This document shows positions 2,338 to 55,162 of a stretch of DNA of 64,000 nt, one piece after another. The DNA is taken from the NCBI GenBank assembly GCA_024226735.1, contig JAAELL010000593.1, positions 1 through 64,000 of the forward strand, written 5' to 3'. A model generated the notes under the pieces. That model saw nothing but the letters and a program-made list of their open reading frames with translations, made no database searches and was not told the origin of the DNA. Position 1 is the stretch's first letter, and each line of letters opens with the position of its first letter. This DNA is from a bacterium (GTDB lineage Bacteria > Planctomycetota > UBA1135 > GCA-002686595). Position numbers and translations under genes: made by a program.

Positions 2338-5300
2338 CTATTTCAAGCTGGCTTCGGGAAGGCGGCAGAGGAGCACGATCGTCTCCTCGACACGCTCCCA
2401 CGGGTTACCTTCGGCCTGCGCCAGGAAGTCGAGCGCGGCGTCGTTCGACTCGGCGCTGAGCGTCGATCCGGTCAGCCGCACCGCCGCGTGATCGACGACG
2501 CGCTGGCGCCACGCCGAGCCGTCACCCGCGCCGGGGCTGCGCATCCCGTCCGGTACGAGGCTACGCACGATCCAGCGATGGCGCTGCACGAACCGCCAAC
2601 GCTGCATGAGCGCATTCGTGTCGACCCAAGCCTCATCCTCTTCCGGATAGCCGTCGGGAGTCTCGCGGTCGGCGAAGCCCATGCCGCTCTGGCGCAGGTA
2701 CTCGGACACTGCCCAGTCGGCGGCGAACGAACCGGTCGTGCGCGCGACGCGCACGGCGAAGTCGATGGGCTGCGCGAGGCGCGCCTCGTCCGCTCGCCAG
2801 AACGCGTCGTGTTCGGCAATCGACGCCACGACCTCGGTCAGGTCGCCGCCGGAGGCGACGAAGATCGGCACGAGGTCGTCGACGAGCCCAGCCGGCGCGG
2901 GAACCGCGACGTAGTGCTCGGCGAGCTTCGTGCACACGAAGCGCGCGGTGCTCGGGTGCGCGGCAAGCATCTCGAGCGTGAGCAACAGCCGGTCGAAACG
3001 CTCGCCCGGAGGGCGCGCTTCGAAGCGCATGCCCAACACCTCGCGCGCCGCCCCGTCGCCGAGATCCGGATCGTAGCGGAACTCGCGCGCGAAGTACGGC
3101 CCCATGCCCGACGGCGCCGACTGATACGCGAGCGTCAAGCCGCACAGGAGCTCGGCCAAGGTCGTCACGTCCTCTTGGTCGTAGCCGCCGTTCACGCCGA
3201 CGGTGTGCAGCTCCATCACCTCGCGGGCGTAGTTCTCGTTCAGCCGCTGTGCGAAGCTCTGCGCCTGATCCAGGTAGTGGACCATCGCCGGACTCGTGGC
3301 CGAGCTGAGCAGGAGCTCTCCGAACGGCGCCGCGGCGAGCTCTTGGAAGTCGAGGTGCTCGCGCCACTCGCTGGGGTAGCCCGTCTTTCCGCCGTAGGTC
3401 GAGAAGTGGTTCTCGATCCACGCACACAGGCGCGCGCGCACCGGGTTGGGTGTGCGCAGCAGGTGCGAGACGACCCAGCGCTGGTAGTTGCCGTTGACGT
3501 GATCGCCGCGCATCGCGAGCGCGAGCCCGACGGTCGCCGCATCGCCGGCCCCGTCGTTCGCGAGCCGCGCCCGCAGCCATGGGCGTTCGCCGTCGAGCAG
3601 GATCCGCGCGAGCTGTTCCGGATCCGGCCCGAAGCCGAAGCGGTTCAGGATCCGCACGGCGCGTGCGTAGCGCGAGTCCTCGTCCGGCAGCCCGTCCGCG
3701 ACCCAGAAGTGAATCTCCTCCGACTGACCGAGGTTGCCGGCTTCGTCGGTCACGCGCACGGCGAGCGTGTGCTCGCCCGGCACCAGGTCGCGCGCGAGCA
3801 ACGGAAGAACCGTGTACCCCGCGCCCTGCGGGACGTGGCCGAACGTCCTACGCGGCTGCCCGTCGATCAAGAGGTCGGCCGATTGCAGTCGCCCGTCGTC
3901 GTAGGCGTCGACGACGACGGCGTCGACGGCGTGCACGACGTGTCCGGGTGCCGGATACGCGATCGCCGCACGTGGCGCGAAGCGATCGGGCTCGCGCGCG
4001 GTGTGCAGGATCACGCTACGCAGGTTCAGCGTCTTGTTGACGTTGCCGGCGTGCTCGGGCGCGACGGAGAACGCAAACGTCAGCTTCTTGGGACCGGGCT
4101 GAAGCTCGATCTCGCCGCCGGGCTTGTAGTCCCACCAGCCATGCAGCTTCGCGCTGAGCTCCGTCTCGCCGCCTTCGGTCACCAGGGCAACGTCGACCTG
4201 CGTCTCCTCCTGCGAGCGGGCTTCGAACACGAGTCGAAACCTACCCTCCAGCTCGTCGGGCAGCTCGAGGAACGCCAGCCGGTCGTGGGTCGGCAGCGCG
4301 ACGGACTGCCCGGGCTCCTGCCCCTGTGTCGTCAAGGTGTCGTCCCAGGCGCCGCCCCAGCGTTCGTCGTGAACGCTGAAGCGCAGCCCGTCCCGTGCGG
4401 GCGCCGGACCGGAGTCCCCCATCATGTGCACCGTCTGCACCGGCGTCTCGGCAACCCGCCCGTCGGCGAGCTCGGCTACGAGCTGCAGCGTGTTCTCCCC
4501 TTCGCTGAATGCCGCGCGGTCGAGCGCGAACACCGGCCGCGCCGCCTGCTGCCTGACGACCGTCTCGCCGTTCAAGAGCAGCGACACGTGCGGCGCCGGC
4601 ACGTCTTCCATTCCGACCCAGCTGCAGTACCCGCCGATCTCGAGCAGGCCGTTGACCGGAAGCCCGTCGAACGAGCGCCGGAATGCCACCCAGAGCCCGG
4701 GGCCACCGGTGATCGCCGCTTGCTGCTCGGCGACCGGCACCATCATCATCCCGGCCTCGACGGGGTCGACGCTCGGGCCGTCGACGGCGAGGAGCTCGAC
4801 GCGATCGAGGTAGAGGTTGCGGTCGGTCACCGGCGCGGACGACATGTCGTTGCCGAAGCGAATGCCGATGCGACGCTCGCCTGCCTCGAGCTCGAGCGGC
4901 GGGCCGAGCGGAATTCTGTGCCACGCGCGATCGACGAGCCGCGCGGTGCGCACGACGTCAGGACGGTCGACGGAGACCGCGATCGTCGGGAAAGCGCCTG
5001 CGCCCCAGTCGCCACGCGCGCGCGCGACGAGCTGGTAGCGACCGTTGCGAGGGACCGAGTACGGAAGCGTCCAGATCGGATACGCACCGGCGTTGACGAT
5101 GAACGCGCCGCCCGAAGCCCCGGGGTCGGACCCGACCGGCAGCTCCTTGGGACCGTAGCGACGTTCGGCCGTCTCGCCGCTCGATTCGCACTCGAACGTC
5201 TGCGTGGCGGACGCCGCCGGGTGTGCCACCGTCACACGCAGCGGTTCGCTCGCGACGCCCCTCACGACGGCGACCAGCTCGACGGGCCCGGGCGGCAGCG

Positions 5301-5838
5301 CGCTGGCGTCGACCGCGAACGCGACATGTTGGAAAGGCGAGCGATGGACGGCGACCGCTCGGCGCCCGCCGAGCTCCTCGCCGCCCGGGAGCCGGAGCCG
5401 CACGTCGGACACGTCCGCTTCGCCGGTCACGTCGACGCCGACCGCGAACGTGCCCCACACGATCGCGCCCGGCGTCGGCCCGACGATGCGCGCAGCATCG
5501 CGGCGGATGCGCGCGGCGCCGTTCGCCGCGGTGACGACGACCTCGAGCTCCGCACTAGCGACGCGTAGCTTCGTCGTTCCCAGCTCCCGGCCGCGCACGC
5601 GCAGAAAACCGATCGCCTTGCCCGCCAAGACCTCGGCCGGTCGCAGCACTTCGAGCAAGTCCGGATCGGCAGCCGCCGTGTCGAAGCTGCGGTCGGCGTC
5701 CGCCGCCTCGACGTGAAAGGCGATGACCTGGGAACGGTCGAGCCATACGGTCTGTGCGCGCGTCGCGAACTCCTGGGCGGCGGCGTGCTCGCTGGAAGCG
5801 AGACCGAACGAGACGACCAACGCGAGGGCGATCTTCAT
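2338..5838 (-). CDS. Large secreted DUF1800 family protein with N-terminal carbohydrate-binding-like and Ig-like domains
   Basis: A 1166-residue exported protein. The start at 5838 gives a classical signal peptide (MKIALALVVSFGLASSEHAAAQ) and has GGAG 8 bases upstream; a TAGAAT -10-like box lies at 5879-5884. The predicted cleavage AAA|Q would leave glutamine first. In order: a small beta domain (about 25-110), an Ig/CBM-like region with a CBM35-type stretch around 215-345 (FECESSGE, GGAFIVNAGAYPIW, RYQLVARARGDW), further sandwich domains, an Ig-like domain near 620-690, then the DUF1800 domain from RILNRFGFGPDPEQLARI to the end, with NENYAREVMELHTVGVNGGY. Ordinary DUF1800 proteins are about 500 residues, so the first 700 residues are an extension that may bind polysaccharide. 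It forms an operon with the DUF1501 gene. Confidence 0.88.
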   Translation of the reverse strand: MKIALALVVSFGLASSEHAAAQEFATRAQTVWLDRSQVIAFHVEAADADRSFDTAAADPDLLEVLRPAEVLAGKAIGFLRVRGRELGTTKLRVASAELEVVVTAANGAARIRRDAARIVGPTPGAIVWGTFAVGVDVTGEADVSDVRLRLPGGEELGGRRAVAVHRSPFQHVAFAVDASALPPGPVELVAVVRGVASEPLRVTVAHPAASATQTFECESSGETAERRYGPKELPVGSDPGASGGAFIVNAGAYPIWTLPYSVPRNGRYQLVARARGDWGAGAFPTIAVSVDRPDVVRTARLVDRAWHRIPLGPPLELEAGERRIGIRFGNDMSSAPVTDRNLYLDRVELLAVDGPSVDPVEAGMMMVPVAEQQAAITGGPGLWVAFRRSFDGLPVNGLLEIGGYCSWVGMEDVPAPHVSLLLNGETVVRQQAARPVFALDRAAFSEGENTLQLVAELADGRVAETPVQTVHMMGDSGPAPARDGLRFSVHDERWGGAWDDTLTTQGQEPGQSVALPTHDRLAFLELPDELEGRFRLVFEARSQEETQVDVALVTEGGETELSAKLHGWWDYKPGGEIELQPGPKKLTFAFSVAPEHAGNVNKTLNLRSVILHTAREPDRFAPRAAIAYPAPGHVVHAVDAVVVDAYDDGRLQSADLLIDGQPRRTFGHVPQGAGYTVLPLLARDLVPGEHTLAVRVTDEAGNLGQSEEIHFWVADGLPDEDSRYARAVRILNRFGFGPDPEQLARILLDGERPWLRARLANDGAGDAATVGLALAMRGDHVNGNYQRWVVSHLLRTPNPVRARLCAWIENHFSTYGGKTGYPSEWREHLDFQELAAAPFGELLLSSATSPAMVHYLDQAQSFAQRLNENYAREVMELHTVGVNGGYDQEDVTTLAELLCGLTLAYQSAPSGMGPYFAREFRYDPDLGDGAAREVLGMRFEARPPGERFDRLLLTLEMLAAHPSTARFVCTKLAEHYVAVPAPAGLVDDLVPIFVASGGDLTEVVASIAEHDAFWRADEARLAQPIDFAVRVARTTGSFAADWAVSEYLRQSGMGFADRETPDGYPEEDEAWVDTNALMQRWRFVQRHRWIVRSLVPDGMRSPGAGDGSAWRQRVVDHAAVRLTGSTLSAESNDAALDFLAQAEGNPWERVEETIVLLCRLPEASLK

Positions 5839-15156: not shown

Positions 15157-16338
15157 ATGGCCCCCTCCCTCAGGCCGCTGACGATCCTGCTCGGCATCCT
15201 CACGACGATCATGCTGGGCTGGGTCCTGCACGTGGGCGCCGAGATCCTGCAGCCGCTCGTGATCGCGCTCCTGCTCGCCAGCATGCTGCAGCCGCTGGTC
15301 GTCGCCCTGGCTCGCAAGAGGATCCCGCCGGGGCTGACGGTCATTACGCTCGTCACGCTGCTCTTCCTCGGCCTCGCCCAGGTGGGGCTCTTGCTGCAGG
15401 CCAACGTAGTCTCGTTCCTCGGGGTGCCCGTCGAGACGACTTCGACGGCCCCGCTCGACCCCATGTCCAAGGAGCAGGGCGAGCTGTCCGACCGGCTCGG
15501 TGGCTGGTCCGGGGTCAAGCAAAACATCCGCGCGCGCATGGAGCGCTCGAGCCTGCCCGAGCCAGTGACCAACCTGCTGCACAGCTCGCTCGACAAGATC
15601 GACCGTGTCCGGCTCGAGGCCTTCGCCCCCGATTTGATTGGCGGCGGTTTCGACTTCGTCAAGAGCTTGTTGCTGGTCGTGATCTACATGGTCTTCATCT
15701 TCGCGGAGCAGGCGGTGTTCCGGCGCAAGATCCTGTCGATCGCAGGCGAGCGCCGCGAGGTCGCGGTCGAGGTACTCGACACCATGGGCCGCGGGATCCA
15801 GCGCTACCTCGGCGTGAAGACCGTCGCGTCGTTCGCCACCGGTGCCCTGTGCTACGCCGTGCTCGTCTTCCTCGAGATCCCGTACGCGCTCCTGTTCGGT
15901 TTCCTGACCTTCCTGCTCAACTACATCCCGACCTTCGGCAGCATCATCGCTGGGCTGTTCCCCACGATCACGGCGCTCGCCGTCGAGGAGTCGTGGAGCA
16001 AGGCGCTGGTCGTGATCGTGACCTACCTCACGGTCAACCTCACGATCGGCAGTTACCTCGAGCCAAAGGTGCTGGGACGCGAGCTCGACCTGTCACCGCT
16101 GGTCATCATCGTCTCGGTCGTCGTCTGGGCCGGCCTGTGGGGCGTCGTCGGGGCGTTCCTTGCGGTTCCGTTGACGTCGACGCTGCAGATCGTTCTCGCG
16201 AGTCAGGAGAACACGCGCCCGATCGCGATCATGCTCTCCAGCGGCCCGCCGCGCGAGCGACGACCACGCGGCGTGCGACGCAAGCGCCGCTCGGAGGGGA
16301 GCTCCGGGCGCGGCGGCGAGGGCCGCTTCACGGCGTAG
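15157..16338 (+). CDS. AI-2E family transporter (PerM/TqsA-like)
   Basis: A 393-residue polytopic inner-membrane protein of the AI-2E/PerM family. It opens with paired helices (TILLGILTTIMLGWVLHVG, LQPLVIALLLASML). The characteristic amphipathic section follows around 180-215 (RRKILSIAGERREVAVEVLDTMGRGIQRYL). The family core comes next: GFLTFLLNYIPTFGSIIAGLFP, then NLTIGSYLEPKVLGRELDLSPLVIIVSVVVWAGLWGVVGAFLAVPLT. The family includes exporters and Na+/H+ antiporters; the autoinducer-2 name is historical, and no quorum-sensing genes are present. The last 11 bases overlap the convergent glutaminyl cyclase gene. Confidence 0.9.
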   Translation: MAPSLRPLTILLGILTTIMLGWVLHVGAEILQPLVIALLLASMLQPLVVALARKRIPPGLTVITLVTLLFLGLAQVGLLLQANVVSFLGVPVETTSTAPLDPMSKEQGELSDRLGGWSGVKQNIRARMERSSLPEPVTNLLHSSLDKIDRVRLEAFAPDLIGGGFDFVKSLLLVVIYMVFIFAEQAVFRRKILSIAGERREVAVEVLDTMGRGIQRYLGVKTVASFATGALCYAVLVFLEIPYALLFGFLTFLLNYIPTFGSIIAGLFPTITALAVEESWSKALVVIVTYLTVNLTIGSYLEPKVLGRELDLSPLVIIVSVVVWAGLWGVVGAFLAVPLTSTLQIVLASQENTRPIAIMLSSGPPRERRPRGVRRKRRSEGSSGRGGEGRFTA

Positions 16339-17119
16339 CGTCGACCTCGATCTCGTACAGCGTCGGCCACAGCTTGCCGGTGACCCACAGCTTGCCCGTC
16401 TCGGGATCGTGGGCGATCCCGTTCAACACGGCGTCCTCGTTGTCGATCGGCGGAAAGTCCGCCAAGCCGGAAAGATCGATCCAGGCCTCGACTGCGCCAG
16501 TCGCCGGGTCGATGCGGGCGATCCGATTCGATTTCCACACGTTGGCAAGCACCTTCCCGTCGACGTACTCGAGCTCGTTGAGCCAGGTCACGGGGCGCCC
16601 GTCGGCCGTTACTCCAACCGTTCGCTTGACCTTGAACGTCTGCGGATCCAGGAAGCTCAAGAGATTCTTACCATTCGAGAGCACGAGATGCGTGCCGTCG
16701 AAGGTCAGCCCCCAGCCCTGTCCCGAATACTTGTGCTCGCGCAGCTTCTCGAACGACTCGCGGTCGTAGACGAGCGCCCGCCGCGAACGCCACGTCAGCT
16801 GGATCAACTCGTCGCCGAGAAGGACGAGCCCCTCGCCGAACAGCTCGCGCGGCAGGTCGATGTGTTGAACAACTTCACCGTCCTCGAGCCGCACGCGGCG
16901 CAGAGTTGATTGCTCGTAGAGGCCCGTGCTTTCGTAGAGGAAGCCGTCCTTGTAGAGCAGCCCCTGGCAGTACGACTCGGGCGCGCGCGGATACTGCTTC
17001 ACGAGTCGGTAGCCGAGGACGGGCACGGCCGCGCTGACCGCGCCCTCCTCCTTCGAACAGGTGCTTGTGAAGACGACGACGACCGCGAGGACCGTTCGAC
17101 AGGTGTGCGAGAGCGTCAA
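16328..17119 (-). CDS. Glutaminyl-peptide cyclotransferase (beta-propeller type)
   Basis: A 263-residue enzyme that cyclises N-terminal glutamine to pyroglutamate. The family is the plant/bacterial five-bladed propeller (Glu_cyclase_2), unrelated to the animal zinc enzyme. Diagnostic segments are LLYKDGFLYESTGLYEQSTLRRV, LPRELFGEGLVLLGDELIQLTW, YSGQGWGLTFDGTHLVLSNG, TWLNELEYVDGKVLANVW and IARIDPATG. The only suitable start is TTG at 17119. It overlaps the TGA of the upstream gene (TTGA), so translation is coupled. MTLSHTCRTVLAVVVVFTSTC gives an export signal with a possible lipobox, placing the enzyme in the periplasm or envelope. It is the last gene of a four-gene operon whose other products are predicted to start with Gln after processing. 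Confidence 0.88.
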   Translation of the reverse strand: MTLSHTCRTVLAVVVVFTSTCSKEEGAVSAAVPVLGYRLVKQYPRAPESYCQGLLYKDGFLYESTGLYEQSTLRRVRLEDGEVVQHIDLPRELFGEGLVLLGDELIQLTWRSRRALVYDRESFEKLREHKYSGQGWGLTFDGTHLVLSNGKNLLSFLDPQTFKVKRTVGVTADGRPVTWLNELEYVDGKVLANVWKSNRIARIDPATGAVEAWIDLSGLADFPPIDNEDAVLNGIAHDPETGKLWVTGKLWPTLYEIEVDATP

Positions 17120-17673
17120 GGAGTGAAGGTGATTCCGATGCCGTTGGTGAAGTTGAAGCCCGAGCCACACGGTCCGGCCGGGTCGCGGTAGGCGAGCTGG
17201 AAGTGCCAGCTGTCCCCCGCCGTGACCGCGCCGGCCGCGCCGAAGTTCGCGACCGAGTAGGCGACGAGCCCGGGTCCTTCCTCGATGACCCCCCAGGGCC
17301 CGGAGTCGCGTACGGGGAAGCGGAAGATGCCGATGCCCCCGGTCGCGATGCACAGCACGCCGTCGCCGAAGGGAACCTGCGTCCGGCCGCCCCCCATGAA
17401 CACGAGACCGAACTGGTTCGGCGGCAGGTTCGCGGCGACGAGCAGGAGGTCGTCCGCGGCCACGCTGTTCGACCCCTGGTTCGGACCGAGGAAGCCCTTG
17501 AACCCGGTCGAGTTGAAGCAGCCGCCCGGAATCCCGGTCGGCTGATCGTTGCCGCAGGGACCGAGTCCCTGGAGGCACTCGCAGTAGTAGTCGACCTGCG
17601 CTGTCGCCCGCGGCGCGAGCGCCACGGCGAAAAGGGTCGCCAAAAGGATCGAGGGCAAACTCGAGTAAGTCAT
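17116..17673 (-). CDS. Small secreted planctomycete-type protein of unknown function
   Basis: A 185-residue exported protein. The signal peptide MTYSSLPSILLATLFAVALAPRATA ends with ATA|Q, so the mature protein should begin with QVDYYCEC. It has paired cysteines near the new N terminus (CECLQGLGPCGND, CFNSTGF). Its C-terminal signature is SWHFQLAYRDPAGPCGSGFNFTNGIGITFTP, which I associate with the ends of many secreted planctomycete proteins; a broken copy of the same signature lies at 35961-36105. The start at 17673 has GGAGG 9 bases upstream. It sits 16 bases after the vWA gene and overlaps the glutaminyl cyclase start, so it is an obvious candidate substrate of that enzyme. Confidence 0.75.
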   Translation of the reverse strand: MTYSSLPSILLATLFAVALAPRATAQVDYYCECLQGLGPCGNDQPTGIPGGCFNSTGFKGFLGPNQGSNSVAADDLLLVAANLPPNQFGLVFMGGGRTQVPFGDGVLCIATGGIGIFRFPVRDSGPWGVIEEGPGLVAYSVANFGAAGAVTAGDSWHFQLAYRDPAGPCGSGFNFTNGIGITFTP

Positions 17674-17689
17674 GGCACAAGACCTCCGT

Positions 17690-19579
17690 TCAGTCTCGAC
17701 GCACGTAGCGTCCACCCGTGTCGGACGTCAGCCAGCGTAGCAGAGTCGAGTCCTGACCGATCGTAATGCCGTGGATCCGCACGCGGCGCGACGCATTCCA
17801 GCGCCGAACTTCCTCGCGAATCGCCGCGATGTCAGTGATCTCGCCCTCGGTCGGCGCGCCGTCACTGATCAGGTAGATCGTGTCGACAAGCGGGTCGGAA
17901 AAGGCGAGCTCGAGCGCCGGGTAGAGGGCGGTCGCGCCGAGAGCGTACTGCTCGCGGATGAATCGCAGCGACTTCTGGCGATGCGCCTTCTTCATCTTGA
18001 CGAGCTTCTTCGCCAGCGCGCGCACCTCGGTCTCGAAGAAGATCAAGTTGAAGAGCCGCCCGTCGGGCATGGCGCGCAGGATCCCGGTCAGCTCCTCCTT
18101 CGCGACGTCCATGCGCGAGGGTTTCGAGGGGTCCTGCGGCCCGCTCGGATCGACGCCTAGGCCGGCATTCGTGCGCATCGATCCGGAGACGTCCAGAACG
18201 AACACGACGCGCTCGCTGAAGACCTCCGCGCCGTAGAACGTGGCCGCGACCGAACGGCCCTGCTCGGCGAGACGTTCCTTCGCGATGCGCTCCGCCTTCT
18301 CGACCGCCGCGACGTCGGGCACCTCGAAGCGCTCGCCCTCGCGCGCCCAGAAGCGCCTCCACGGGTCGACCCGGCGGCCGAGGTCGAGCCCCGTGAGCAC
18401 GCGCAGTGCGGCATAGACGTCCTCGCGCATGCGCCCCACCTCGACCTCGAGACGGTCGATCAGGAGCGGGATCGAGTCCTTGCGCCGCAGCCGCGCGAGC
18501 TGCTCGATCGCGGTCGAGCGCACCGGCCACTCGTCGTCGCGGGTCAGCTCGCCGAGCCGCTGCAGCGCAGGCTCGGTCCGCACGTGCACGAGCGCCTCGG
18601 CCGCCCCCATTCTCAACAAGGGGTCGCGGGCGCGGGAGAGCTCGAGGATCTCGTCGCGCCATTCGGGCTCGGTCAGCTCGAGTCGGCCCAGCGCGACCAC
18701 GGCCGCGCGCCGCAGCGACGGTTCCTTCGAGCGGAACAGCGGCCGCAGCTTCGGTCCGAGGCCCTTGGCGTCGTCGCGCCGCACGACGTGCGCGAGCGCC
18801 GCGGCCGCGACGGCCGGATCCGAGTCGTCGAACACCTCCGCGAGCGCGCGGGTGAGCGCCTCCCCTTCGCGCCGCGCCAACAGGTCGATCAGGAGGAGCT
18901 TCCAATCGCGCGACGTATCGCCCTCCAGCATGTGCTCGACGAGCAACGCCTCGAGCTCGGGCTGGGTGCAGCGCTCCAGCGCGCGGCACACGACCTCGCG
19001 CTCGCGCTTGCCTGCGTCCGCTTCCTTCTCTCTTGCGTCGACGCCGAGACTGGGAGTTGCCGGCTCCCACCCCACCGAGGCGAAGTCCAAGACGAGCCGC
19101 AGGGCGTCCACCTCGCCGCGCGCGGCGAGCCGCGCCACGAGCGCGTCGCAGGCGAGACTGCGACACGCGGGGTCGGAGTGTTCGACGAGCACGCGCTCCA
19201 AGATCGGTAGCGCGTCGTCACCGAACGCGCGCAGGGTGTGCACGACGACCGGCCGCGCGCTCTTGTTCTTGATGCGGAAGGCCTGACGCGCCAGGAACTG
19301 TCGCGCGCGGTCCGCGTGGACCCCACCCGCGAACGTTGCGAACGCCTCGATCGCGGGCTGCAGCGCCTCGATCTTCTTGAGCGCCTGCGCCGCCTCCTCG
19401 AGCACCTCGAGAGCCGCCTCGTCGCCCAGGCCCGCGAGCTCTGTGAAGACGTCGGGATGGACCCGATCCTTCTCCTTTTGGATGCGCCGCGCGAGCTCGT
19501 CCGCGTCCTGGCCGAAGCCGGTCGCCGCGAGGCCCACCACGATGATGGCCGCGCGCACGACGGCCCGAGTCCACTTCAC
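17690..19579 (-). CDS. Exported HEAT-repeat/von Willebrand factor A protein
   Basis: A 629-residue protein. The GTG start at 19579 overlaps the upstream TGA (GTGA) and gives the signal MKWTRAVVRAAIIVVGLAATGFG, with cleavage before QDADELAR. Residues about 40-430 are HEAT repeats (VVHTLRAFGDDALPILERV, RRAAVVALGRLELTE, STAIEQLARLRRKDSIPLL). The C-terminal vWA domain starts near 458 with RVVFVLDVSGSM, giving MIDAS residues D463, S465 and S467. The distal threonine and aspartate are likely in YALGATALYPAL and LISDGAPTEGE. Such proteins form protein-protein platforms in the periplasm, and the MIDAS may bind a metal and a ligand. It is the second gene of the operon that ends with glutaminyl cyclase. 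Confidence 0.85.
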   Translation of the reverse strand: MKWTRAVVRAAIIVVGLAATGFGQDADELARRIQKEKDRVHPDVFTELAGLGDEAALEVLEEAAQALKKIEALQPAIEAFATFAGGVHADRARQFLARQAFRIKNKSARPVVVHTLRAFGDDALPILERVLVEHSDPACRSLACDALVARLAARGEVDALRLVLDFASVGWEPATPSLGVDAREKEADAGKREREVVCRALERCTQPELEALLVEHMLEGDTSRDWKLLLIDLLARREGEALTRALAEVFDDSDPAVAAAALAHVVRRDDAKGLGPKLRPLFRSKEPSLRRAAVVALGRLELTEPEWRDEILELSRARDPLLRMGAAEALVHVRTEPALQRLGELTRDDEWPVRSTAIEQLARLRRKDSIPLLIDRLEVEVGRMREDVYAALRVLTGLDLGRRVDPWRRFWAREGERFEVPDVAAVEKAERIAKERLAEQGRSVAATFYGAEVFSERVVFVLDVSGSMRTNAGLGVDPSGPQDPSKPSRMDVAKEELTGILRAMPDGRLFNLIFFETEVRALAKKLVKMKKAHRQKSLRFIREQYALGATALYPALELAFSDPLVDTIYLISDGAPTEGEITDIAAIREEVRRWNASRRVRIHGITIGQDSTLLRWLTSDTGGRYVRRD

Positions 19580-20454
19580 TTGAGACCGAGCTTCCTCTTG
19601 TTGTCCTTGATGTACGAGAGAGCCTTGGCCGAGTCCCCCGGGTGCTCGCCCTCCGCCGGTCGGAAGACTTGGCCGGTCAGCTCCTTCAACGACCACGCGA
19701 CGTCGCGGCGAATCTTGGACCACTTCTCCCAGCGCGAAGCCCAGTACGAGCCGGGCGGATTGCTCGGAGAGTCGACGGCTCCGGGTTCGGGCGCGGCGAG
19801 CTGCTCACACAGCGCGCGCACGATCGAGTAGTCGTTCGTCTTGATCGTTCCGAAGTAGCGAACGCTGGCGCGCATGATGTCCTCGTGCTCGAACGCCTTG
19901 AAGAGTTTGTAGACGTCCGGCTCGACCTTGCGGTTCCCGACCTGCGCCAACGACAGGATGACCGCCCCGAGCGCCTTGGGCTTGTCCTTGCGAAGGCGCT
20001 TGTCCTTGAACGCCTTGACGAGGGCGGAGCTCGCCTTCTTATCGCCCGGGAAGTTCGCGAGGAGACGCGCCGCCGCCGCCTGAACGGCGCCCTCGCGCTC
20101 GAACAACAGCAGCTTCTTCTCCTTCTTCTTCCGCATGCCGAGCTCCTCGGCCTGTGCCTCGACCGCGGCCTTGTCAACCTTGGTGAGCTTGTAGGAGAGC
20201 GCCTCGCGCGCAACGACGGCGAGCTCGGGATTGTTGAAGGAGACCATCTCGTCCAGGACGCGCATCAGCTCGGCGCCGTCCTTGGCCACGAGCGCCGCCT
20301 CCTGCTTCTTCATCAGGAGGTCGAGTTGCGCCGGTCCGGCCGCCTCGATCTTGGGCGGCTCCTCGAGCGGCTCCTGCGCGCGGACGGGCGCAGTGAAGAG
20401 AAAGCAAACGAGCGCGACAGGTGCGACGGACGCGATGACGGAGCGATCCTGCAT
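19576..20454 (-). CDS. Exported HEAT-like repeat protein
   Basis: A 292-residue protein starting at ATG 20454, which has GGAGG 9-10 bases upstream. The signal peptide runs MQDRSVIASVAPVALVCFLF to VRA and is predicted to be cleaved before QEPLEEPPKIE. The remainder is an all-helical repeat region of HEAT type (LMRVLDEMVSFNNPELAVVAREAL, EGAVQAAAARLLANFPGD, ALGAVILSLAQVGNRKVEPDV), rich in lysine (RKKKEKKLLLF). It ends with WASRWEKWSKIRRDVAWSLKELTGQVF, resembling the end of armadillo/HEAT platforms. No catalytic motif is visible. It is the first gene of the operon, with a promoter-like TTGACC/TACAAT pair upstream, and its stop overlaps the GTG of the vWA gene. A scaffold partner of that protein is the simplest reading. 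Confidence 0.75.
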   Translation of the reverse strand: MQDRSVIASVAPVALVCFLFTAPVRAQEPLEEPPKIEAAGPAQLDLLMKKQEAALVAKDGAELMRVLDEMVSFNNPELAVVAREALSYKLTKVDKAAVEAQAEELGMRKKKEKKLLLFEREGAVQAAAARLLANFPGDKKASSALVKAFKDKRLRKDKPKALGAVILSLAQVGNRKVEPDVYKLFKAFEHEDIMRASVRYFGTIKTNDYSIVRALCEQLAAPEPGAVDSPSNPPGSYWASRWEKWSKIRRDVAWSLKELTGQVFRPAEGEHPGDSAKALSYIKDNKRKLGLK

Positions 20455-20483
20455 GGCGTAACCTCCGGAGGCTTTGTGCGCCG

Positions 20484-20514
20484 ATTGTAACCGAGTCGCG
20501 CAGTCGCAGGTCAA
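20484..20514 (-). promoter_or_regulatory. Predicted sigma-70-like promoter of the HEAT/vWA/glutaminyl cyclase operon
   Basis: On the minus strand, TTGACC (20509-20514) and TACAAT (20484-20489) are separated by 19 bases and lie about 30 bases before the start at 20454. The spacing is slightly long for sigma-70. A ribosome binding site follows. Confidence 0.5.
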
Positions 20515-20692
20515 ACGCGCCGTCAGTCGCGGAATCGGCCTGCAGCCGCGCCTGGTAGGCAGCGTGGAGAGCCGCATCCTCGCGTGCGCTCTCGGCGAAA
20601 AAGATGAAGCCGGGACACCTGAGGAAGCCGTCGCGCTCGAACGCCGCGCGGGCCGCATGCCCGTCGAAACCCCGTACGTCCTCGACGTTCAT
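20510..20692 (-). pseudogene. Possible N-terminal remnant of a PhyH-like dioxygenase gene
   Basis: A reading frame starting at 20692 encodes MNVEDVRGFDGHAARAAFERDGFLRCPGFIFF and about 30 more residues with coding-like base use. It then runs into the promoter and leader of the HEAT operon, where it loses sense. FERDGFLRCPGF resembles the N terminus of phytanoyl-CoA dioxygenase family proteins, but the iron-binding motifs are absent. The boundary given at 20510 is my estimate. It may be a remnant or coincidental coding-like sequence. Confidence 0.3.
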
Positions 20693-20709
20693 GACGGTAG
20701 TGTAGCCGC

Positions 20710-21162
20710 ATGCCCGCAACGATTCAGGCCCGCGCCGCCATCGCCGACGCGAGTGGTGGTTTCGTGTTCGAGGAGGTCGACGTCGACCCGCCGCGCGCCG
20801 GCGAGGTGCTGGTCGAGATGCGCGCTTCGGGCGTGTGCCACACGGACTGGGACTGGGTCCGAATCACCGATGACGCCCACGTGATCGGGCACGAGGGCGC
20901 GGGAGTCGTCGCCCTTGTCGGGGAGGGAGTCGAGCGCGTCGCGCGCGGAGACGCGCTCGTTCCCAACTGGGCCATTCCCTGCGGCACCTGTTCTTGGTGC
21001 GAGCGCGGAGCGGAGTCGATCTGCGAGTCGAAACCGCTCGTCCCCCACGAATGCACCCGTTGGCGCGGCCAGGGCATTCGCCGCAACTTCGAGCTGGGCA
21101 CGATGTCGACGCACGCGATCGTGCGCGAGGAAGCCGTGATCGCGATCCCGACAGGCTGCTAG
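20710..21162 (+). pseudogene. Truncated zinc-dependent alcohol dehydrogenase (GroES-like domain only)
   Basis: The 150 residues match the N-terminal catalytic domain of medium-chain zinc alcohol dehydrogenases: ASGVCHTDWDW with the catalytic-zinc cysteine, IGHEGAGVV with the conserved GHE, and the structural-zinc set CGTCSWCERGAESIC. The sequence then stops at IPTGC, just before the point where the family continues into the NAD-binding Rossmann domain. Full-length relatives are about 370 residues, so more than half is missing. The TAG stop overlaps the end of the convergent symporter gene by four bases. The product could not bind NAD and is probably non-functional. Confidence 0.85.
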
Positions 21163-22634
21163 CCGGGTGGCGTGCCCGCGACGCACAGGAACGCGTCATC
21201 GCTGCACGGGCGCGTCAGCCGCGACAGGACGAGCAGCGTGACGACGTTGGCGGCGAGCCCGTAAGCGCCCGCGTGGATCGCGAACGGCCGGGACTCCGGC
21301 GAGACGACGAACCACGTGTTCACGACGATGCCGGCACAGAGGCCGCCGAACACGGCGGCACCGCTGATGCGTCGGGCGTACAGTGTCGCGACCACGGCTG
21401 GAAAGAACTGCGTCACCGGCCCGTAGGCGTAGATCAAGAGCCCCGCCAGCGAACCGCGGTACGAGATGGCGAGCGCGTACGAGCCCAGCATGACGACGAC
21501 GACCAGGCGCCGGATCCAGGCGCGCTCCTTGTGCGGGTCGAGCTCCTTCCCGAACGCCGTCGCGATCCCGTCGCGCACGACGATCGATGCCGCCGCGTGC
21601 ACCATCGCGTCTCCCGACGACATCGACGCGGCGAGCGCGCCGGCGCAGAAGAGCCCCACGACGATCGCGGGCAGCTCGGTGTGCATCATCATGTGCGGCA
21701 GGATCTGATCCGCCCGCGGCGGCGCCGGTTCGAACAGCACCCCCGCGAACCCGATGATCAGGATTGGGACGAGAAAGATCTGAAACGTCGGATAGAGGAC
21801 GACGGTCCGCCGAATCGTCCGCTCACTGCGCGCGGTGTAGGCCTTCATGAAAAGGTGCGGCCACATCGAGAAGCCCAGGATCGACACGATCACGGTGCTC
21901 GAGTATTCCGACCATGCCCAGGGCGCTCCGGTCGAGGTCAAGCCGGGCGCGCGCAGGAGCTCGGGCCTCTCGTTGGCGATGCGCTCGAACATCGGTCCGA
22001 TGCCGCCGTAGAGCAGCTGCGGCAGGTACAGCCCCATGAACCACGCGAGCGCCATCATGAAGATGCCCTGGAACGTGTTCGTCCAGCCGACGCCGAGAAC
22101 ACCGCTCTTGAGGACGTAGGCGAGAACGACGCCGTAGACGATCGCGGCCCCCTGCCACTGCTCGATCCCGCCGCGCGTCACGGTCTCCAGCACGTAGCCC
22201 GCCCCCTTCATCTGGAGCGCGAGGTAGGGAACGAACGCCATAACGCTGATCACCGCCATCACGCCGGCGATGGCGGGCATCGAATACCGAGCCGCGATCA
22301 TCTCGGCTTGCGTGACGAAACCGTAGTGCCGGCCGAGACGGGCGGCCCGTGGCCCCAGGAAGTAGAAGGGCAAGAACCCGAGTGCCCCGTACGCAAGGAT
22401 GTAGAGGCCGGCCACCCCGCGTGAGTAGGCCCAGCCTGGCATTCCGAGGAAGGCGAAGGCGCTGAAGATCGTCGCTCCGGTGATGAAGTACATCACCAAG
22501 GTTCCGAGCGAGCGGTCGCCGGCTACGTACCCCGTGGCGCTGTCGCTCGTGCGCTTGCTCGGCCACATGCCGATCGCCAGACAGGCCACGAGGTAAGTCG
22601 CTGAGACGGAGACGACGACTGCGGAAGAAGTCAC
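21159..22634 (-). CDS. Sodium:solute symporter (SSS family)
   Basis: A 491-residue inner-membrane symporter with about 13 hydrophobic segments. SSS-family features: GYVAGDRSLGTLVMYFITGATIFSAFAFLG at the N terminus, FFLGPRAARLGRHYGFVTQAEMIAARY after helix 3, and ALAASMSSGDAMVHAAASIVVRD, the family signature near helix 9 containing sodium-site serines. The pattern is closest to pantothenate/monocarboxylate-type members; the substrate is not determinable. ATG at 22634 overlaps the stop of the small DUF3311 gene (ATGA), the usual arrangement in which the small membrane protein accompanies the transporter. A divergent TetR gene probably controls both. The 3' end abuts the truncated dehydrogenase. 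Confidence 0.9.
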   Translation of the reverse strand: MTSSAVVVSVSATYLVACLAIGMWPSKRTSDSATGYVAGDRSLGTLVMYFITGATIFSAFAFLGMPGWAYSRGVAGLYILAYGALGFLPFYFLGPRAARLGRHYGFVTQAEMIAARYSMPAIAGVMAVISVMAFVPYLALQMKGAGYVLETVTRGGIEQWQGAAIVYGVVLAYVLKSGVLGVGWTNTFQGIFMMALAWFMGLYLPQLLYGGIGPMFERIANERPELLRAPGLTSTGAPWAWSEYSSTVIVSILGFSMWPHLFMKAYTARSERTIRRTVVLYPTFQIFLVPILIIGFAGVLFEPAPPRADQILPHMMMHTELPAIVVGLFCAGALAASMSSGDAMVHAAASIVVRDGIATAFGKELDPHKERAWIRRLVVVVMLGSYALAISYRGSLAGLLIYAYGPVTQFFPAVVATLYARRISGAAVFGGLCAGIVVNTWFVVSPESRPFAIHAGAYGLAANVVTLLVLSRLTRPCSDDAFLCVAGTPPG

Positions 22635-28517: not shown

Positions 28518-31262
28518 ATGCGGCACATGCGCACCGTGTTGCTGACCTGCCTTCTCGCACAGACGCCCGGAACGGGATTCGAACCACTCCTGGTCGGCGC
28601 CGCCGACGCAAACCGCGACGGCAAGACCACAGCGGTCGAGTGGACCGCGTTCGTCGATGCGGTCGCGCCCACCGACCCGGTCGACGCCGACGCGGTCAAG
28701 GTCGCCATCCTCCGGCACCTGCTCGATGCGAACACCGACGGCACGCTGATGCGCGACGACGTCGATGCCACCTTTGCCGCGATGGATGCCGACGGCAACG
28801 GCGCACTCGCCGCGGACGAGACGGGGCTCGGCGGCGGTTCGCGCGCGGGCGCGCGGCGCCGAGGGTTCGCGAACCGGCTCGCGCGCGGGGTCCTCGCACA
28901 GGCCGCCGATGCCGACGCATCCGGCGACGTGACGGGCGAGGAGTGGTCGACACTCGTGGCCGCCGTCACCGCGGAGGCGGTCCCGGACGAAGTCCTGCGC
29001 GGCTGGATGCAGACCGCGGAGCGAGCCCCCGGTGGACGGACGGCCTTCACGCCCGGCATCTTCATGATGACAGTGGGCAGCAGCCTCGACGTCGACAAGA
29101 GCGGCGACGTGTCGCGGGCGGACCTCACTTCCGCCTTCGCGAGCCTCGACACGAGCGGGGACGGCGACGTCGACGCGTCCGAGCTCGTCGTCCGGCCTTC
29201 GGGCGGCGGACCGGCGCCACAGGCAGGTCCTCCGATCGACCGCAGCCAGCCGCCGCTCATGCCCTGGCAGCGCAACCTCGACGATGCGCTCGCGCTCGCC
29301 AAGGCGACCGGCAAGCCGCTCTTGGTCTGCGTCAACATGGACGGCGAGGCCGCGAGCGAGTCGCTCGCCTGGGGCCGCTACCGCGACCCTGAGTTCGCCA
29401 AGCTCGCACAAGGCTTCGTGTGCGTCCTCGCATCGCCCGACCGGCGCAACGTGCGCGACCACGACGACCGCGGCCGGCGCATCACGGACACGCGTTTCGG
29501 CACGGTCGTGAACGCCGAGCACATCGACATCGAGCCCAAGCTCTTCGCGCGCTACTTCAGCGACCGGCGTGTCGCCCCCCGCCACGTCGGCGTCAGCCCC
29601 GGCGGCAAGATCCTGTTCGACATCTACCTGACGAACGAGCTCTCGTTGATCGACGCGGCCCTGCGCGAGCACGGTACGCCGGACGTGGAGGTCGGGGTGC
29701 CCGCGACCGAAGCGGAGCGGCTCGCGAGTCCAGCGTCGGAGCACCGCACGCAACTCGAGTCCGCGTTCCTGGCAGGCGACGAAGCCACGAGAGCCAGGCT
29801 CGCGAGCCTGGCGCTCTCCGCGCTGCGCGACACGCAGCATCCCGAGCTCCTGCGCCTCGCCCTGCACGACCCAGAGCCGGCCATCGTGCGCCAGGGTTTG
29901 TGGACGCTCATTCAGCACATCGAAGTGGCACCCGTCGAAATGCTGCCCCGCGCGGCCTACCTCGCGGGTGCCGAGCCGCGCCTGCGCGGCGCGCTCGTCG
30001 CCGCGCTGGCGGACCGCGCGGAGACCGATCGCGACGCGCTGCGACGCGTCCGCGTGCAGCGGCTCGCGCGGGTCTTCGAGGCCCTGCACACGGGGTCGCG
30101 AGCGATCGACGCCGAGCGCTGGAAGCTCGTGCTGGCGGTCTCGAGCGTCGGACCGGCGGCTCCCCCGTCACCCGCGGGAGTCGACGCCCTGACCGAGCAG
30201 ATGGCTCGCATCGAGGAGCGACTGGCGACGCGCCCGGGTGACGGCCAGCTCAACCTGTTGATGGCTGCCGCGACCATGAACCTCGCGCGGATTCGCCTCT
30301 TCGAAGGGCTGAACCCGACGTTCCTCTTGGAGGACGTCCGCGTCTCGGCGAAAGCGGCACTCGCAGGCGGCATCCCCAACGCCGAGGCGGCGCAGGCCTA
30401 CGTCGCGTGGTCCTCCTACCTGCTCGGCGACTTGGATGAGGCGGCGCAGTACGCGAGCGAAGCGCGGTCCGGCCTGATCGCCGACGCCGGCTCCACGCTG
30501 GCGCACGCGGTCTTGAACGTCGACGCCGACGTGCGGACGCGCAAGCTGTACGAAGCCACGCCCGACACGTGGACGGTCGAGGTCCTCGCTGACACGTGCG
30601 CCGCGCACGCGACTCTCCTCGCTCACCCCGCGTGCACCGAGGGCGAGGCCAAACGCGCGATCGCCTTCTTCGGCACGATCGAGGCCTACGCGGAGCAGGA
30701 GGCCGCGATCCGCGGGGCCCTCGAGCGCTTCCCGCTGTCTCCCGACCTGCACGCCCAGCTGCGGACCCAGACCCTGCGCGACCACGGCGCCGCCGGTCTC
30801 GAACGCATCTACGGCAAGGTCCGCATCCCCGAGCAGCACGCCGCCACGACTGAGTGGTTCGCGGGGCTCGCCGCGCTGGTCGCAGCCGAGCACTACGTGT
30901 CGAACAAGCGCAGCGTCGAAGCCCTCGCTGCCTACCAGCTCTCGATCGACCGGTTCCAAACGTCGGTCGAGCTCAGCCCCAGCTTCGAGGGTTCCGCGAC
31001 CCACTACACGGCGCTCGATCACGCGGGCCGCGCCCGGCTGCTGACGGCCGCGCGCAAGTGGGACGAGGCGCAGGACTCGATCCGGTCGGCACTCACGGCG
31101 AACGCCTCCGCCATCCAGGCGGAGGACGGCCTCGGCAAGAGCCCGGCCCAATCGGCGAGCGAGCTCTGGAACGCGCTCGTGCGCGCCGGCGAAGTCGACC
31201 ACGCGGAGGTGCTCGGGAGCATGCTGAACGATCTTGGCATCGAGATACGCCCCGCACGGTGA
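28518..31262 (+). CDS. Exported EF-hand, thioredoxin-like and TPR-like protein
   Basis: A 914-residue protein with a short signal peptide (MRHMRTVLLTCLLA, then QTPGTG). Five calcium-binding EF-hand loops are visible in residues 25-230: DANRDGKTTAVEW, DANTDGTLMRDD, DADGNGALAADE, DADASGDVTGEEW, DVDKSGDVSRAD, plus DTSGDGDVDASE. Next is a thioredoxin-fold segment (about 255-390, LDDALALAKATGKPLLVCVNMDGE) that lacks a CxxC, so it is not a redox enzyme of the usual kind. A HEAT-like stretch and TPR-like helices fill 420-914. GGAGAGG precedes the ATG by 10 bases. Its TGA overlaps the GTG of the PhyH gene. Function is unknown; calcium-dependent envelope scaffolding is plausible. Confidence 0.75.
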   Translation: MRHMRTVLLTCLLAQTPGTGFEPLLVGAADANRDGKTTAVEWTAFVDAVAPTDPVDADAVKVAILRHLLDANTDGTLMRDDVDATFAAMDADGNGALAADETGLGGGSRAGARRRGFANRLARGVLAQAADADASGDVTGEEWSTLVAAVTAEAVPDEVLRGWMQTAERAPGGRTAFTPGIFMMTVGSSLDVDKSGDVSRADLTSAFASLDTSGDGDVDASELVVRPSGGGPAPQAGPPIDRSQPPLMPWQRNLDDALALAKATGKPLLVCVNMDGEAASESLAWGRYRDPEFAKLAQGFVCVLASPDRRNVRDHDDRGRRITDTRFGTVVNAEHIDIEPKLFARYFSDRRVAPRHVGVSPGGKILFDIYLTNELSLIDAALREHGTPDVEVGVPATEAERLASPASEHRTQLESAFLAGDEATRARLASLALSALRDTQHPELLRLALHDPEPAIVRQGLWTLIQHIEVAPVEMLPRAAYLAGAEPRLRGALVAALADRAETDRDALRRVRVQRLARVFEALHTGSRAIDAERWKLVLAVSSVGPAAPPSPAGVDALTEQMARIEERLATRPGDGQLNLLMAAATMNLARIRLFEGLNPTFLLEDVRVSAKAALAGGIPNAEAAQAYVAWSSYLLGDLDEAAQYASEARSGLIADAGSTLAHAVLNVDADVRTRKLYEATPDTWTVEVLADTCAAHATLLAHPACTEGEAKRAIAFFGTIEAYAEQEAAIRGALERFPLSPDLHAQLRTQTLRDHGAAGLERIYGKVRIPEQHAATTEWFAGLAALVAAEHYVSNKRSVEALAAYQLSIDRFQTSVELSPSFEGSATHYTALDHAGRARLLTAARKWDEAQDSIRSALTANASAIQAEDGLGKSPAQSASELWNALVRAGEVDHAEVLGSMLNDLGIEIRPAR

Positions 31263-32131
31263 GCGGTCCCGCGGGCGTCCCCCTGACGGACGCGTTCCCG
31301 CGCGCGGAAGGCGACCTCGCGGAGTACCGGTTGAGCGCGGACGAGGTCGCCGCGTTCCACGCGAGCGGCTTCCTCTTCCCGCGCCCGCTCCTCACCCCCG
31401 CGCAAGTGACGGAGCTCCGCGCGCGCCTCGGCTCGATCGGGGAGCGGCTCATCGAGCTTCGCGACCGCTTGTACGAAGTCGAGAGTGCGTGGCTCGAGCG
31501 GCCGAACGAGGTCGTTCTGCACTTTCTCGGCGCGTGGCTCGTCGACGACTGGTTCCACGACCTGATCTTCCATCCGGGCGTCACGGTGCCGCTGGCGCAG
31601 CTGCTCGGCACCGATCGCCTGCGCTTCTGGCACGACCAGACGTTTTGGAAACCGGCTCATCACCCGGGCGTCGTGCCGTGGCACCAGGACTATTCGTACT
31701 GGACGCGCACCGAGCCCGCGAACCACATCACCATGTTCATCAGCCTCGACGACATGGACGCGTCGAACGGAGGCCTGCAGTACGTGCCTGAAAGCCATCG
31801 CTGGGGCCTCTTGCCGCGGCTTTCGTTCGGAGGCGCCGCGGACCAGGCCCTCGAGCATCTCACGCCGGAGCAGCGCGCGCAGTTCGAGCCGAAACAGGTC
31901 GAGCTGCACGCCGGTCAAGCGGCGATCCACCACTCGCACCTGATCCACGGTTCCCTGGGCAACCCATCCGACCGGCCGCGTCGCGCGATCGTCTTGAACT
32001 TCATGGGGCCCGAGACACGCTGCGCGGACGACTCGGAGCCGTTGTTGCGCGGCACGCCGGCCATCGCGCGCGGGGCGCTGGTCGATGGCGCGTACCACCC
32101 GATCGTGTGGCGCTCCAAGCCCAGGGGCTAG
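31259..32131 (+). CDS. Phytanoyl-CoA dioxygenase (PhyH) family iron/2-oxoglutarate oxygenase
   Basis: A 290-residue enzyme beginning with GTG at 31259, overlapping the upstream TGA (GTGA). The N-terminal YRLSADEVAAFHASGFLFPRPLL is typical of PhyH proteins. The iron site is the HxD in VVPWHQDYSYW and the distal histidine in HHSHLIHGSLGNPSDRPRRA, whose arginine is suited to binding 2-oxoglutarate. SLDDMDASNGGLQYVPESHRWG is the central family block. The reaction is oxidative hydroxylation of an unknown small molecule or lipid in the cytoplasm. Coupling to an exported EF-hand/TPR protein is unusual. A cluster of three hairpins follows the stop. Confidence 0.9.
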   Translation: MSGPAGVPLTDAFPRAEGDLAEYRLSADEVAAFHASGFLFPRPLLTPAQVTELRARLGSIGERLIELRDRLYEVESAWLERPNEVVLHFLGAWLVDDWFHDLIFHPGVTVPLAQLLGTDRLRFWHDQTFWKPAHHPGVVPWHQDYSYWTRTEPANHITMFISLDDMDASNGGLQYVPESHRWGLLPRLSFGGAADQALEHLTPEQRAQFEPKQVELHAGQAAIHHSHLIHGSLGNPSDRPRRAIVLNFMGPETRCADDSEPLLRGTPAIARGALVDGAYHPIVWRSKPRG

Positions 32132-52276: not shown

Positions 52277-55162
52277 TCAGTCGAGGATCGGGTCGGCCTT
52301 GATCTCGAAGGTCCGCCGCTGCTCGTCGTCTCCGACCTTCAGCACGATCGTGTAGCGACCCGCCGGAGCACTGCCGCCACCGCGGCGGCGGCGGCCTTGC
52401 TGCGCCTCGCCCCGGCGGCGCAGGTTCCACGTGTCGACGTGCAGACCCGGCTTGCGCTCGAGGTCGGGCTCGGCGACGACCTTGCCGTCGGGCCCGAGGA
52501 TGCGTAGCTCGAGCTCGCCCTTCTCGAACTCGCGGCCCAGGTAGTACGAGAAGGTCGCGCCCGAAGCGGGGTTGGCGCCGCGGAAGATGCGGTCGCCGTT
52601 CCAGCCGCCCGCGCTGCGGCTCTGCAGCCGGACGACGTCGGAGACCGCGAACAGGTGCGCGTCCTTCGCGAGCGACTCGCCGCGCAGGCCGCGCACGACC
52701 GAGACGTCCATCGCCCAGAAACCGCGACCGTGGGTCGCGAGGACCAGCTCACCATCGCGCGGGTGCACGACGAGGTCGTGGACGGGGATCGTCGGCAGCC
52801 CCGAGCCGAGCTTGTGCCACGCACCGCCGGCATCGACCGAGACGTACGCGCCGAGCTCGGTCCCGACGTAGAGCACGCCCGCTTCGACCGGGTCCTCGCG
52901 CACGACGTTGACCGGTTCCTGGGGCAGGCCGTCCGAGATGCGGCGCCAGTTCCTCCCACGGTTCTCGGTGACGTACACGAACGCACGAACGTCGTCCTCG
53001 CGGTAGCCGGTGAACGACGCGTACGCCGTGTCGTTGTGGTGCGGCGAGAACTCGACCCGGCTCACCCACCACCCCGACGGCACGCCAGGGAAACGGCCCG
53101 CGAGGTTCGTCCACGACAGCCCGCCATCCTCCGAGAGATGCACGAGGCCGTCGTCGGAGCCGACGAGCACGGCGTTCGGATCGAAGGGGGACTCGGCGAT
53201 CGTCGTCAGCGTGCAGTGCGGCACGTTGCCCGCAATCTTGTCGGGATCGGCGGTCGTCAGGTCCTCACTGACGACCGGCCAGCTGTCGCCGCGGTCGTAG
53301 GACTTGAAGAGGCGGTTGCCGCCGAAGTAGACGATCTGCGAGTTGTGGTGCGAGATCAGGATCGGCGAGTTCCAGTTGTAGCGATTGGCGGGCTCGCCTT
53401 CGGCAGCGCGCGGAGGGCGGATACTGCGCGTCTGCCAGCGATCCACGTCGCGGCGATAGACCGCGCCGAACTGCGACTCGGCGTAGACCGTCGAGGGATC
53501 CGTCGGATCGATCTGGGCGTAGAAGCCATCGCCGCCGCCGACGCGGAACCACTCCTGGTTCATGATCCCGCGGCCGTTGCGCGAGCGCGACGGCCCCCCC
53601 CACGTCCCGTTGTCCTGCGTGCCGCCGTACACGCGGAACGGGACCGAGTTGTCGAGGCCGACAGCGTAGAACTGTGCGATCGGTAGGTTGCTGTAGTGAT
53701 CCCACGTCGCGCCCTGGTCGTAGCTGATGCCGAGACCCCCGTCATTGCCGAGCACGACGCGTCGCGAGTTGTTCGGATCGATCACAAACGCGTGGTGGTC
53801 GACGTGCAGCGACCCGGCGATGCGCTCCCAGGTGACGCCGCCGTCCGTCGACGTCGAGAGCGGTACCCCGACGACGTAGAGCCGCTCGCGGTCGTTCGGG
53901 TCGACGCGGATCTGGCCGTAGTAATAGGCAGGGCTGCCCCCGACCGCGCGCGTGTTGCGCTTGACCCATGTCACGCCGGCGTCCTCCGTCCGGTAGATCT
54001 CGCCGCCGATCTCTCTGTCGCGGGTCGCGGCTTCGACCTCGCCGATCAAGTCGGCGATGGTGACGCGCGTCTCGCGCTCGTCCTCGTCACGGGTGTAGAC
54101 GAGGTCGAGCTCCTCGTCCTCGGTGTAATTGGCGAGAGCGGTGACCCAGCTCCACGGCTCGTCGAACGTCACCTCTCCCAGGCGCACGAGGATGTCGCCG
54201 CGCCGCAGGCCCGCGCGGAACGCGCCACCGCTCTCCGCGACCTGCTGCACGCGCAGCGCACCCTTCTTGAAGCGCGTGCGCAAGCCGACGGTCGGATCGT
54301 CCTCGGGCACGACCAGGACGCGGTTCTGGTTCGAGACCGTCGCGTAGAGCACGCTTGGATCGCCCGGCCAGAGCGCGAGGCCGATGCGGCCGATCTCGCC
54401 CTCCGGCAGGCCGCCGGTGAGCTTGCGCCAGGTACCTCCAGCGTCGGTCGACTTGTAGATCGCCGACCCCGGCCCCGCACCGTCGAAGTTCCAGGCACGC
54501 CGGCGACGTTCGTAGCTCGCGGCGTAGATCGTGCGCGGCTCGTTCGGGTCGATCACCACGTCGACGACGCCGACGTCCTCGTTCACGTGCAGCACCTGGC
54601 GCCAGCTGGCGCCGCCGTCCTCGGTCTTGTAGAGGCCGCGCTCGGCATTGGGTGTGTACAGATGACCGAGCGCCGCGACGTACACGACATCGGAATCCGT
54701 CGGGTCGACGACGATTCGAGCGATGTGGTGCGAGTCCGCCAGGCCCGTGTTCGTCCAGGTCTCGCCACCGTCGGACGTCTTGTAGACGCCGTCGCCCCAG
54801 TAGGAGCTGCGCTGGTTGTTGGCCTCGCCCGTCCCGACCCAGATGACGTCGTCATCCGAGGGATCGAGCGCGATGTCGCCAATCGAGATCGTGCCCTCGT
54901 TCTCGAAGATGCAGTCCCAGGTCGTACCGTTGTTCCGCGTACGCCACAGGCCACCCGAGGCACTCGCGACCAGCAGGAACGAAGCGTCCCCCGGCCGCAG
55001 CGCGAGATCGACGATCCGCCCGCCGAACACCGCGGGACCGAGCTCGCGCCACTCAAACCGCTGGAAGTGCTCGTCCGCGGACGGCTCCTGGGCCGTGGCT
55101 TGGGGAAAGAAGAGGCTAGCGAGGAGCGCACAAGCGGCGCGGGCAGGCGTGCGACCGTTCAT
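52277..55162 (-). CDS. Secreted Asp-box (sortilin/VPS10-type) beta-propeller protein with inserted PDZ domain
   Basis: A 961-residue exported protein; the signal MNGRTPARAACALLASLFFPQATA is predicted to be cleaved before QEPSADE. Many Asp-box repeats build two propellers (SGGLWRTRNNGTTWDCIF, GVYKTSDGGETWTNTGLA, GLYKTEDGGASWRQVL, IYKSTDAGGTWRKLTGG, IYRTEDAGVTWVKRN, LSEDGGLSWTNLAG). Residues about 301-370 are a PDZ-like insert (GALRVQQVAESGGAFRAGLRRGDILVRLG). The end (RYTIVLKVGDDEQRRTFEIKADPILD) stops where relatives of about 1080 residues usually continue with a helical segment, so it appears about 120 residues short. It is often called glycosyl hydrolase-like, but no catalytic residues can be assigned. 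First gene of the minus-strand set. Confidence 0.85.
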   Translation of the reverse strand: MNGRTPARAACALLASLFFPQATAQEPSADEHFQRFEWRELGPAVFGGRIVDLALRPGDASFLLVASASGGLWRTRNNGTTWDCIFENEGTISIGDIALDPSDDDVIWVGTGEANNQRSSYWGDGVYKTSDGGETWTNTGLADSHHIARIVVDPTDSDVVYVAALGHLYTPNAERGLYKTEDGGASWRQVLHVNEDVGVVDVVIDPNEPRTIYAASYERRRRAWNFDGAGPGSAIYKSTDAGGTWRKLTGGLPEGEIGRIGLALWPGDPSVLYATVSNQNRVLVVPEDDPTVGLRTRFKKGALRVQQVAESGGAFRAGLRRGDILVRLGEVTFDEPWSWVTALANYTEDEELDLVYTRDEDERETRVTIADLIGEVEAATRDREIGGEIYRTEDAGVTWVKRNTRAVGGSPAYYYGQIRVDPNDRERLYVVGVPLSTSTDGGVTWERIAGSLHVDHHAFVIDPNNSRRVVLGNDGGLGISYDQGATWDHYSNLPIAQFYAVGLDNSVPFRVYGGTQDNGTWGGPSRSRNGRGIMNQEWFRVGGGDGFYAQIDPTDPSTVYAESQFGAVYRRDVDRWQTRSIRPPRAAEGEPANRYNWNSPILISHHNSQIVYFGGNRLFKSYDRGDSWPVVSEDLTTADPDKIAGNVPHCTLTTIAESPFDPNAVLVGSDDGLVHLSEDGGLSWTNLAGRFPGVPSGWWVSRVEFSPHHNDTAYASFTGYREDDVRAFVYVTENRGRNWRRISDGLPQEPVNVVREDPVEAGVLYVGTELGAYVSVDAGGAWHKLGSGLPTIPVHDLVVHPRDGELVLATHGRGFWAMDVSVVRGLRGESLAKDAHLFAVSDVVRLQSRSAGGWNGDRIFRGANPASGATFSYYLGREFEKGELELRILGPDGKVVAEPDLERKPGLHVDTWNLRRRGEAQQGRRRRGGGSAPAGRYTIVLKVGDDEQRRTFEIKADPILD

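Follow-up and report, generated by a model that had tools for sequence, protein, structure and literature searches.

In the genome of a planctomycete-like bacterium, four tightly packed genes encode three exported proteins that may begin with Gln after signal-peptide cleavage and, at the end of the cluster, a glutaminyl cyclase (QC). This arrangement raises the question of whether the cyclase is dedicated to the proteins encoded beside it or belongs to a trait of the whole genome. The Q-rule, which links signal peptidase I (SPase I) cleavage before Gln to pyroglutamate, was called exclusive to Bacteroidetes in a 2023 paper (PMC10653852). In Porphyromonas gingivalis, complete loss of cyclisation is lethal (PMC10653852). 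The original prediction for this locus proposed a dedicated operon for N-terminal protection and held that no such system had been described in planctomycetes; on the latter point it was borne out, as the literature searched contained no description of either a Q-rule or a pyroglutamate rule for planctomycetes. The window analysed here is a stretch of 64,000 nucleotides that contains the cluster, and it was compared with other stretches of the same genome and with relatives.

The four-gene cluster

The cluster occupies positions 16328-20454, as first described, and its four genes are genuine and closely spaced. The genes are listed below in order of transcription, with an arrow marking the cleavage site, followed by two further exported proteins that the signal-peptide scan of the window placed outside the operon.

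19576..20454, minus strand: exported HEAT-repeat protein (Pfam HEAT_2); ATG start with GGAGG upstream; signal peptide ends VRA↓QEPLEE
17690..19579, minus strand: exported HEAT-repeat/von Willebrand A (HEAT/vWA) protein (Pfam HEAT_2 and VWA); GTG start; weak possible site GFG↓QDADE
17116..17673, minus strand: small secreted protein, no Pfam family; ATG start with GGAGG; signal peptide ends ATA↓QVDYY
16328..17119, minus strand: plant-type QC (PF05096); TTG start; export signal or lipoprotein; Q52, E96, N181, K249
2338..5838, minus strand: further exported Gln-first protein, AAA↓QEFATR
52277..55162, minus strand: further exported Gln-first protein, ATA↓QEPSAD

The stop codon of the HEAT gene overlaps the start of the HEAT/vWA gene (GTGA), a gap of 16 nt separates the latter from the small secreted protein gene, and this third gene overlaps the QC gene through TTGA. 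Good ribosome sites precede the HEAT gene and the small secreted protein gene. Three Gln-first exported proteins had been proposed, and two of them stand: a predictor that was blind to the +1 residue picked VRA↓Q in the HEAT protein and ATA↓Q in the small secreted protein, both of them canonical SPase I sites. The same predictor cuts the HEAT/vWA protein two residues before GFG↓Q, at ATG↓FGQ, and this protein is only a plausible third member.

Two fragments lie next to the cluster. Directly upstream of the HEAT gene, positions 20474-20719 (minus strand) encode a fragment that resembles the start of a phytanoyl-CoA dioxygenase (RDGFLRCPGFIF), and a fuller relative of it may sit at 31259-32131. 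Of a zinc alcohol dehydrogenase-like protein, positions 20710-21162 (plus strand) encode no more than the N-terminal ~150 residues; the gene looks truncated and runs into a symporter gene (21159-22634) on the opposite strand.

Two unrelated glutaminyl cyclases

The fourth gene, coupled through TTGA as had been noted, is confirmed as a QC of the plant type (type I) by a full-length match to the Glu_cyclase_2 profile (PF05096, E 3.9e-93) and by its resemblance to solved bacterial QCs in a PDB comparison (3mbr, E 5.5e-66). It retains the catalytic set of the papaya enzyme, in which the positions are Q/E24, E69, N155 and K225 (PMC5837995). The full-length match and the four catalytic positions are shared with 3mbr, 3nol and the papaya structures 2faw and 2iwa, and the window gene differs from these in closing an operon of exported HEAT/vWA proteins, in its TTG start and in a weak lipobox. 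The N-terminus is hydrophobic with Cys21 in a poor lipobox (TSTC), so that the export first suggested for this enzyme is likely, as a prediction; the plant-type QCs of relatives have clearer lipoprotein N-termini.

PF05096 was present in 10 of 37 genomes of the family. Eight of the family's 11 plant-type QCs could be aligned, and these form a single group with support of 92/89. This led us to reject a recent transfer of the window gene from proteobacteria, and the grouping points to an old presence followed by repeated loss.

A profile search of the same genome returned 18 hits to the M28 domain, and among these proteins we identified a second QC on a separate contig (C523, positions 500-1459). 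Its top PDB match is 7d18 (2e-37), an entry whose only label is 'Peptidase M28'. Most of the matches that come next are QCs from bacteria, insects, Plasmodium and humans, and the first characterised aminopeptidases (2ek8 and 6hc6) are far weaker matches than the QCs. The protein carries the QC motif residues D134, E167, E168, W174, D207, D253 and H281 behind a textbook lipoprotein signal that ends in VAAC. By its sequence it is an animal-type QC and no ordinary aminopeptidase, with cyclase as its predicted activity. It shares the metal and catalytic positions and the lipoprotein signal with the animal-type (type II, M28) group that includes 7d18, the bacterial enzymes 6qro and 7cje and the human enzyme 2afm. 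Its residue 168 is Glu, whereas most enzymes of Bacteroidetes carry Asp there (PMC5837995). This QC is not homologous to the plant-type QC of the window, so the genome encodes both kinds.

Orthologues of the M28 QC (46-57% identity) were found in 30 of the 37 family genomes and were absent from the other seven (G001, G015, G021, G027, G029, G033 and G034). This enzyme is thus near-universal in the family, and of the two it is more likely to be the housekeeping cyclase. Across the whole phylum M28 QCs are scattered, occurring in 18 of 117 genomes. Seven order-level relatives (G037, G041, G049, G053, G055, G056 and G058) have a pair of M28-QC-like genes side by side, which would fit a duplication of the cyclase.

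The two types are distributed in a complementary way: PF05096 occurs in five of the seven genomes without an M28 QC and in five of the 30 with one (Fisher p 0.009). At least one QC of either kind was found in 35 of the 37 family genomes, most of which are incomplete drafts, and neither was found in the drafts G027 and G033. From gene content, it looks as if the plant-type and M28 enzymes substitute for each other among family genomes. Both QC classes also occur among Bacteroidetes, where most are predicted lipoproteins (PMC5837995).

Gln at the +1 position

The residue that follows the SPase I site was examined in 728 kb of the genome, taken as contig stretches, and in stretches of relatives, with Bacteroidota and E. 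coli as controls. Genes and signal peptides were called by purpose-written scripts, with the gene caller retrained for AT-rich Bacteroidota. Among predicted SPase I substrates of the genome, Gln takes the +1 position more often than any other residue, at 27-49% depending on the method. It was found in 26 of 97 proteins when sites were chosen blind to +1 and in 41 of 97 with a fitted site model, and in a stricter set the counts were 19/55 (blind) and 27/55 (fitted); at comparable interior motifs its share was 2.8%. The identical scan gave 58-70% for Bacteroidota, a comparison in which the planctomycete set is diluted by membrane anchors. Because 27-49% of exported proteins are Gln-first, two or three such neighbours in the window operon are not surprising.

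A second measure considered every AxA-type site past the hydrophobic core and compared Q with E, D, N, K, R and H there and in protein interiors, using 28-124 proteins per genome. The resulting odds ratio (OR) was 12.5 (CI 7.3-21.8) for the genome of the window and was little altered over three thresholds or when the window operon was removed. The comparison of Gln at +1 with its background, by which the original prediction could have been refuted, was run genome-wide and the idea survived. The Q share of sites also differed from that of E. coli (p = 0.0007). The per-protein contrast with E. coli was weaker (p 0.04-0.09 fitted, p 0.18 blind), as that count comprised only 23 E. coli proteins. 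Relatives with an M28 QC had ORs of 24 (G010, which lacks the plant-type enzyme) and 14, and relatives with the plant-type QC only had ORs of 3.1 (G015) and 8.2.

An OR of 6.4 was obtained for Rhodanobacteraceae and related proteobacteria with a plant-type QC. The moderate Gln bias in these genomes (L158-L173, L179, L192 and L198, from Rhodanobacteraceae and Burkholderiales) is an observation in its own right, and to judge from this OR further phyla may follow the Q-rule to some degree.

The best reading of these data is that the Q-rule is a genome-wide trait here, graded rather than absolute, and we consider it probable that a rule like that of Bacteroidetes, with pyroglutamate made by QCs, operates in this lineage and in much of its family. 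The reading draws on what the sequences contain: both QC genes with their catalytic residues and export signals, the Gln bias and the complementary distribution. From these we infer catalysis, pyroglutamate formation and protection as the purpose. In the proposed mechanism, SPase I would cleave a large share of Sec substrates directly before Gln on the outward side of the membrane, and exported, membrane-anchored QCs would convert the exposed Gln to pyroglutamate, by analogy with P. gingivalis. The pyroglutamate would protect envelope and secreted proteins, once mature, against aminopeptidases. Either of the two non-homologous cyclases could serve, the M28 lipoprotein being usual in the family and the plant-type propeller enzyme being that of the window; the latter tends to occur where the former is missing, although this genome has both. 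Several observations run counter to this explanation: the weak Gln enrichment in G015, which has the plant-type QC only, the moderate one in proteobacteria with a plant-type QC, a Gln share lower than the Bacteroidetes mean, the weak per-protein contrast with E. coli and the two family genomes in which neither QC was found.

Alternatively, Gln at +1 could be a preference of the lineage's signal peptidase, with the QCs acting on something else, such as peptides or a few proteins. The bias is high in G010 without the plant-type QC and low in G015 with it, and so does not follow the presence of that enzyme, as this alternative would have it. However, an exported QC of one or the other unrelated kind is found in nearly the whole family, and the strongest bias among the sampled genomes is in those with the M28 QC, which makes a peptidase preference alone unlikely. 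It is very improbable that the bias is an artefact of the scripted gene caller and signal-peptide scan, despite the script-based calls, the small counts per genome and the membrane anchors or lipoproteins that make up part of the set, since the identical scan told Bacteroidota apart from E. coli, with ORs of 52 and 1.5 (the latter not significant), the blind site choice ignored +1 and the result was stable over the thresholds.

Operon conservation and the reach of the rule

The tight packing with its GTGA and TTGA overlaps, and the fact that at least two of the three partner proteins are Gln-first, would suit a dedicated four-gene operon whose cyclase specifically modifies the three proteins encoded with it. 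The relatives speak against this. The HEAT and HEAT/vWA genes are adjacent in four of them (G001, G012, G027 and G029), in which a QC lies on another contig or 170 kb away or is absent. In the ten relatives with a PF05096 QC, this gene has unrelated neighbours, the sole exception being G008, where a HEAT-repeat protein is encoded upstream of the QC. Linkage of a QC with the three exported genes was not found conserved among family relatives; the HEAT pair is kept without the QC and the QC without the HEAT pair. Because they separate in this way, the operon is no dedicated system, and its four genes form a local grouping without conservation as a unit. Additionally, Gln-first proteins are frequent elsewhere in the genome and the bias stays when the operon is excluded. 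We therefore reject the dedicated operon, which retains very little probability. Thus the first interpretation keeps its Gln bias, its exported QC and its lack of a planctomycete precedent, and loses its operon. Three more HEAT/vWA paralogues lie in a row elsewhere in the same genome (G000:C348:34310-39800).

The genome-wide, graded rule resembles that of Bacteroidetes in that Gln is the leading residue after SPase I sites and that the exported QCs, mostly lipoproteins, belong to two unrelated classes within the group (PMC5837995, PMC10653852). It differs in its phylum, in the co-occurrence of both QC classes in one genome and in its Gln share, which is 27-49% by the present methods compared with a Bacteroidetes mean of 71%, and pyroglutamate here is deduced from sequence. 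The Q-value is above about 48% in 332 of 334 Bacteroidetes, and scattered outliers with high Q-values outside Bacteroidetes have already been listed (PMC5837995). Because the share here is below 71% and such outliers are known, we describe the trait as graded and claim that a known rule extends to a new lineage; the mechanism is not new.

It seems fairly likely, with somewhat less assurance than we attach to the rule itself, that the Q-rule arose or spread outside Bacteroidetes in this planctomycete lineage and that two unrelated cyclases interchange among its genera. If so, the rule would change from the oddity of a single phylum to a repeated solution, and independent lineages would be available for studying why it evolves. 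Proteomic studies of planctomycete secretomes would have to allow for N-terminal pyroglutamate. Sealing of the N-terminus would then be a convergent strategy of bacteria that are rich in exported peptidases, as the M28-domain hits of this genome illustrate.
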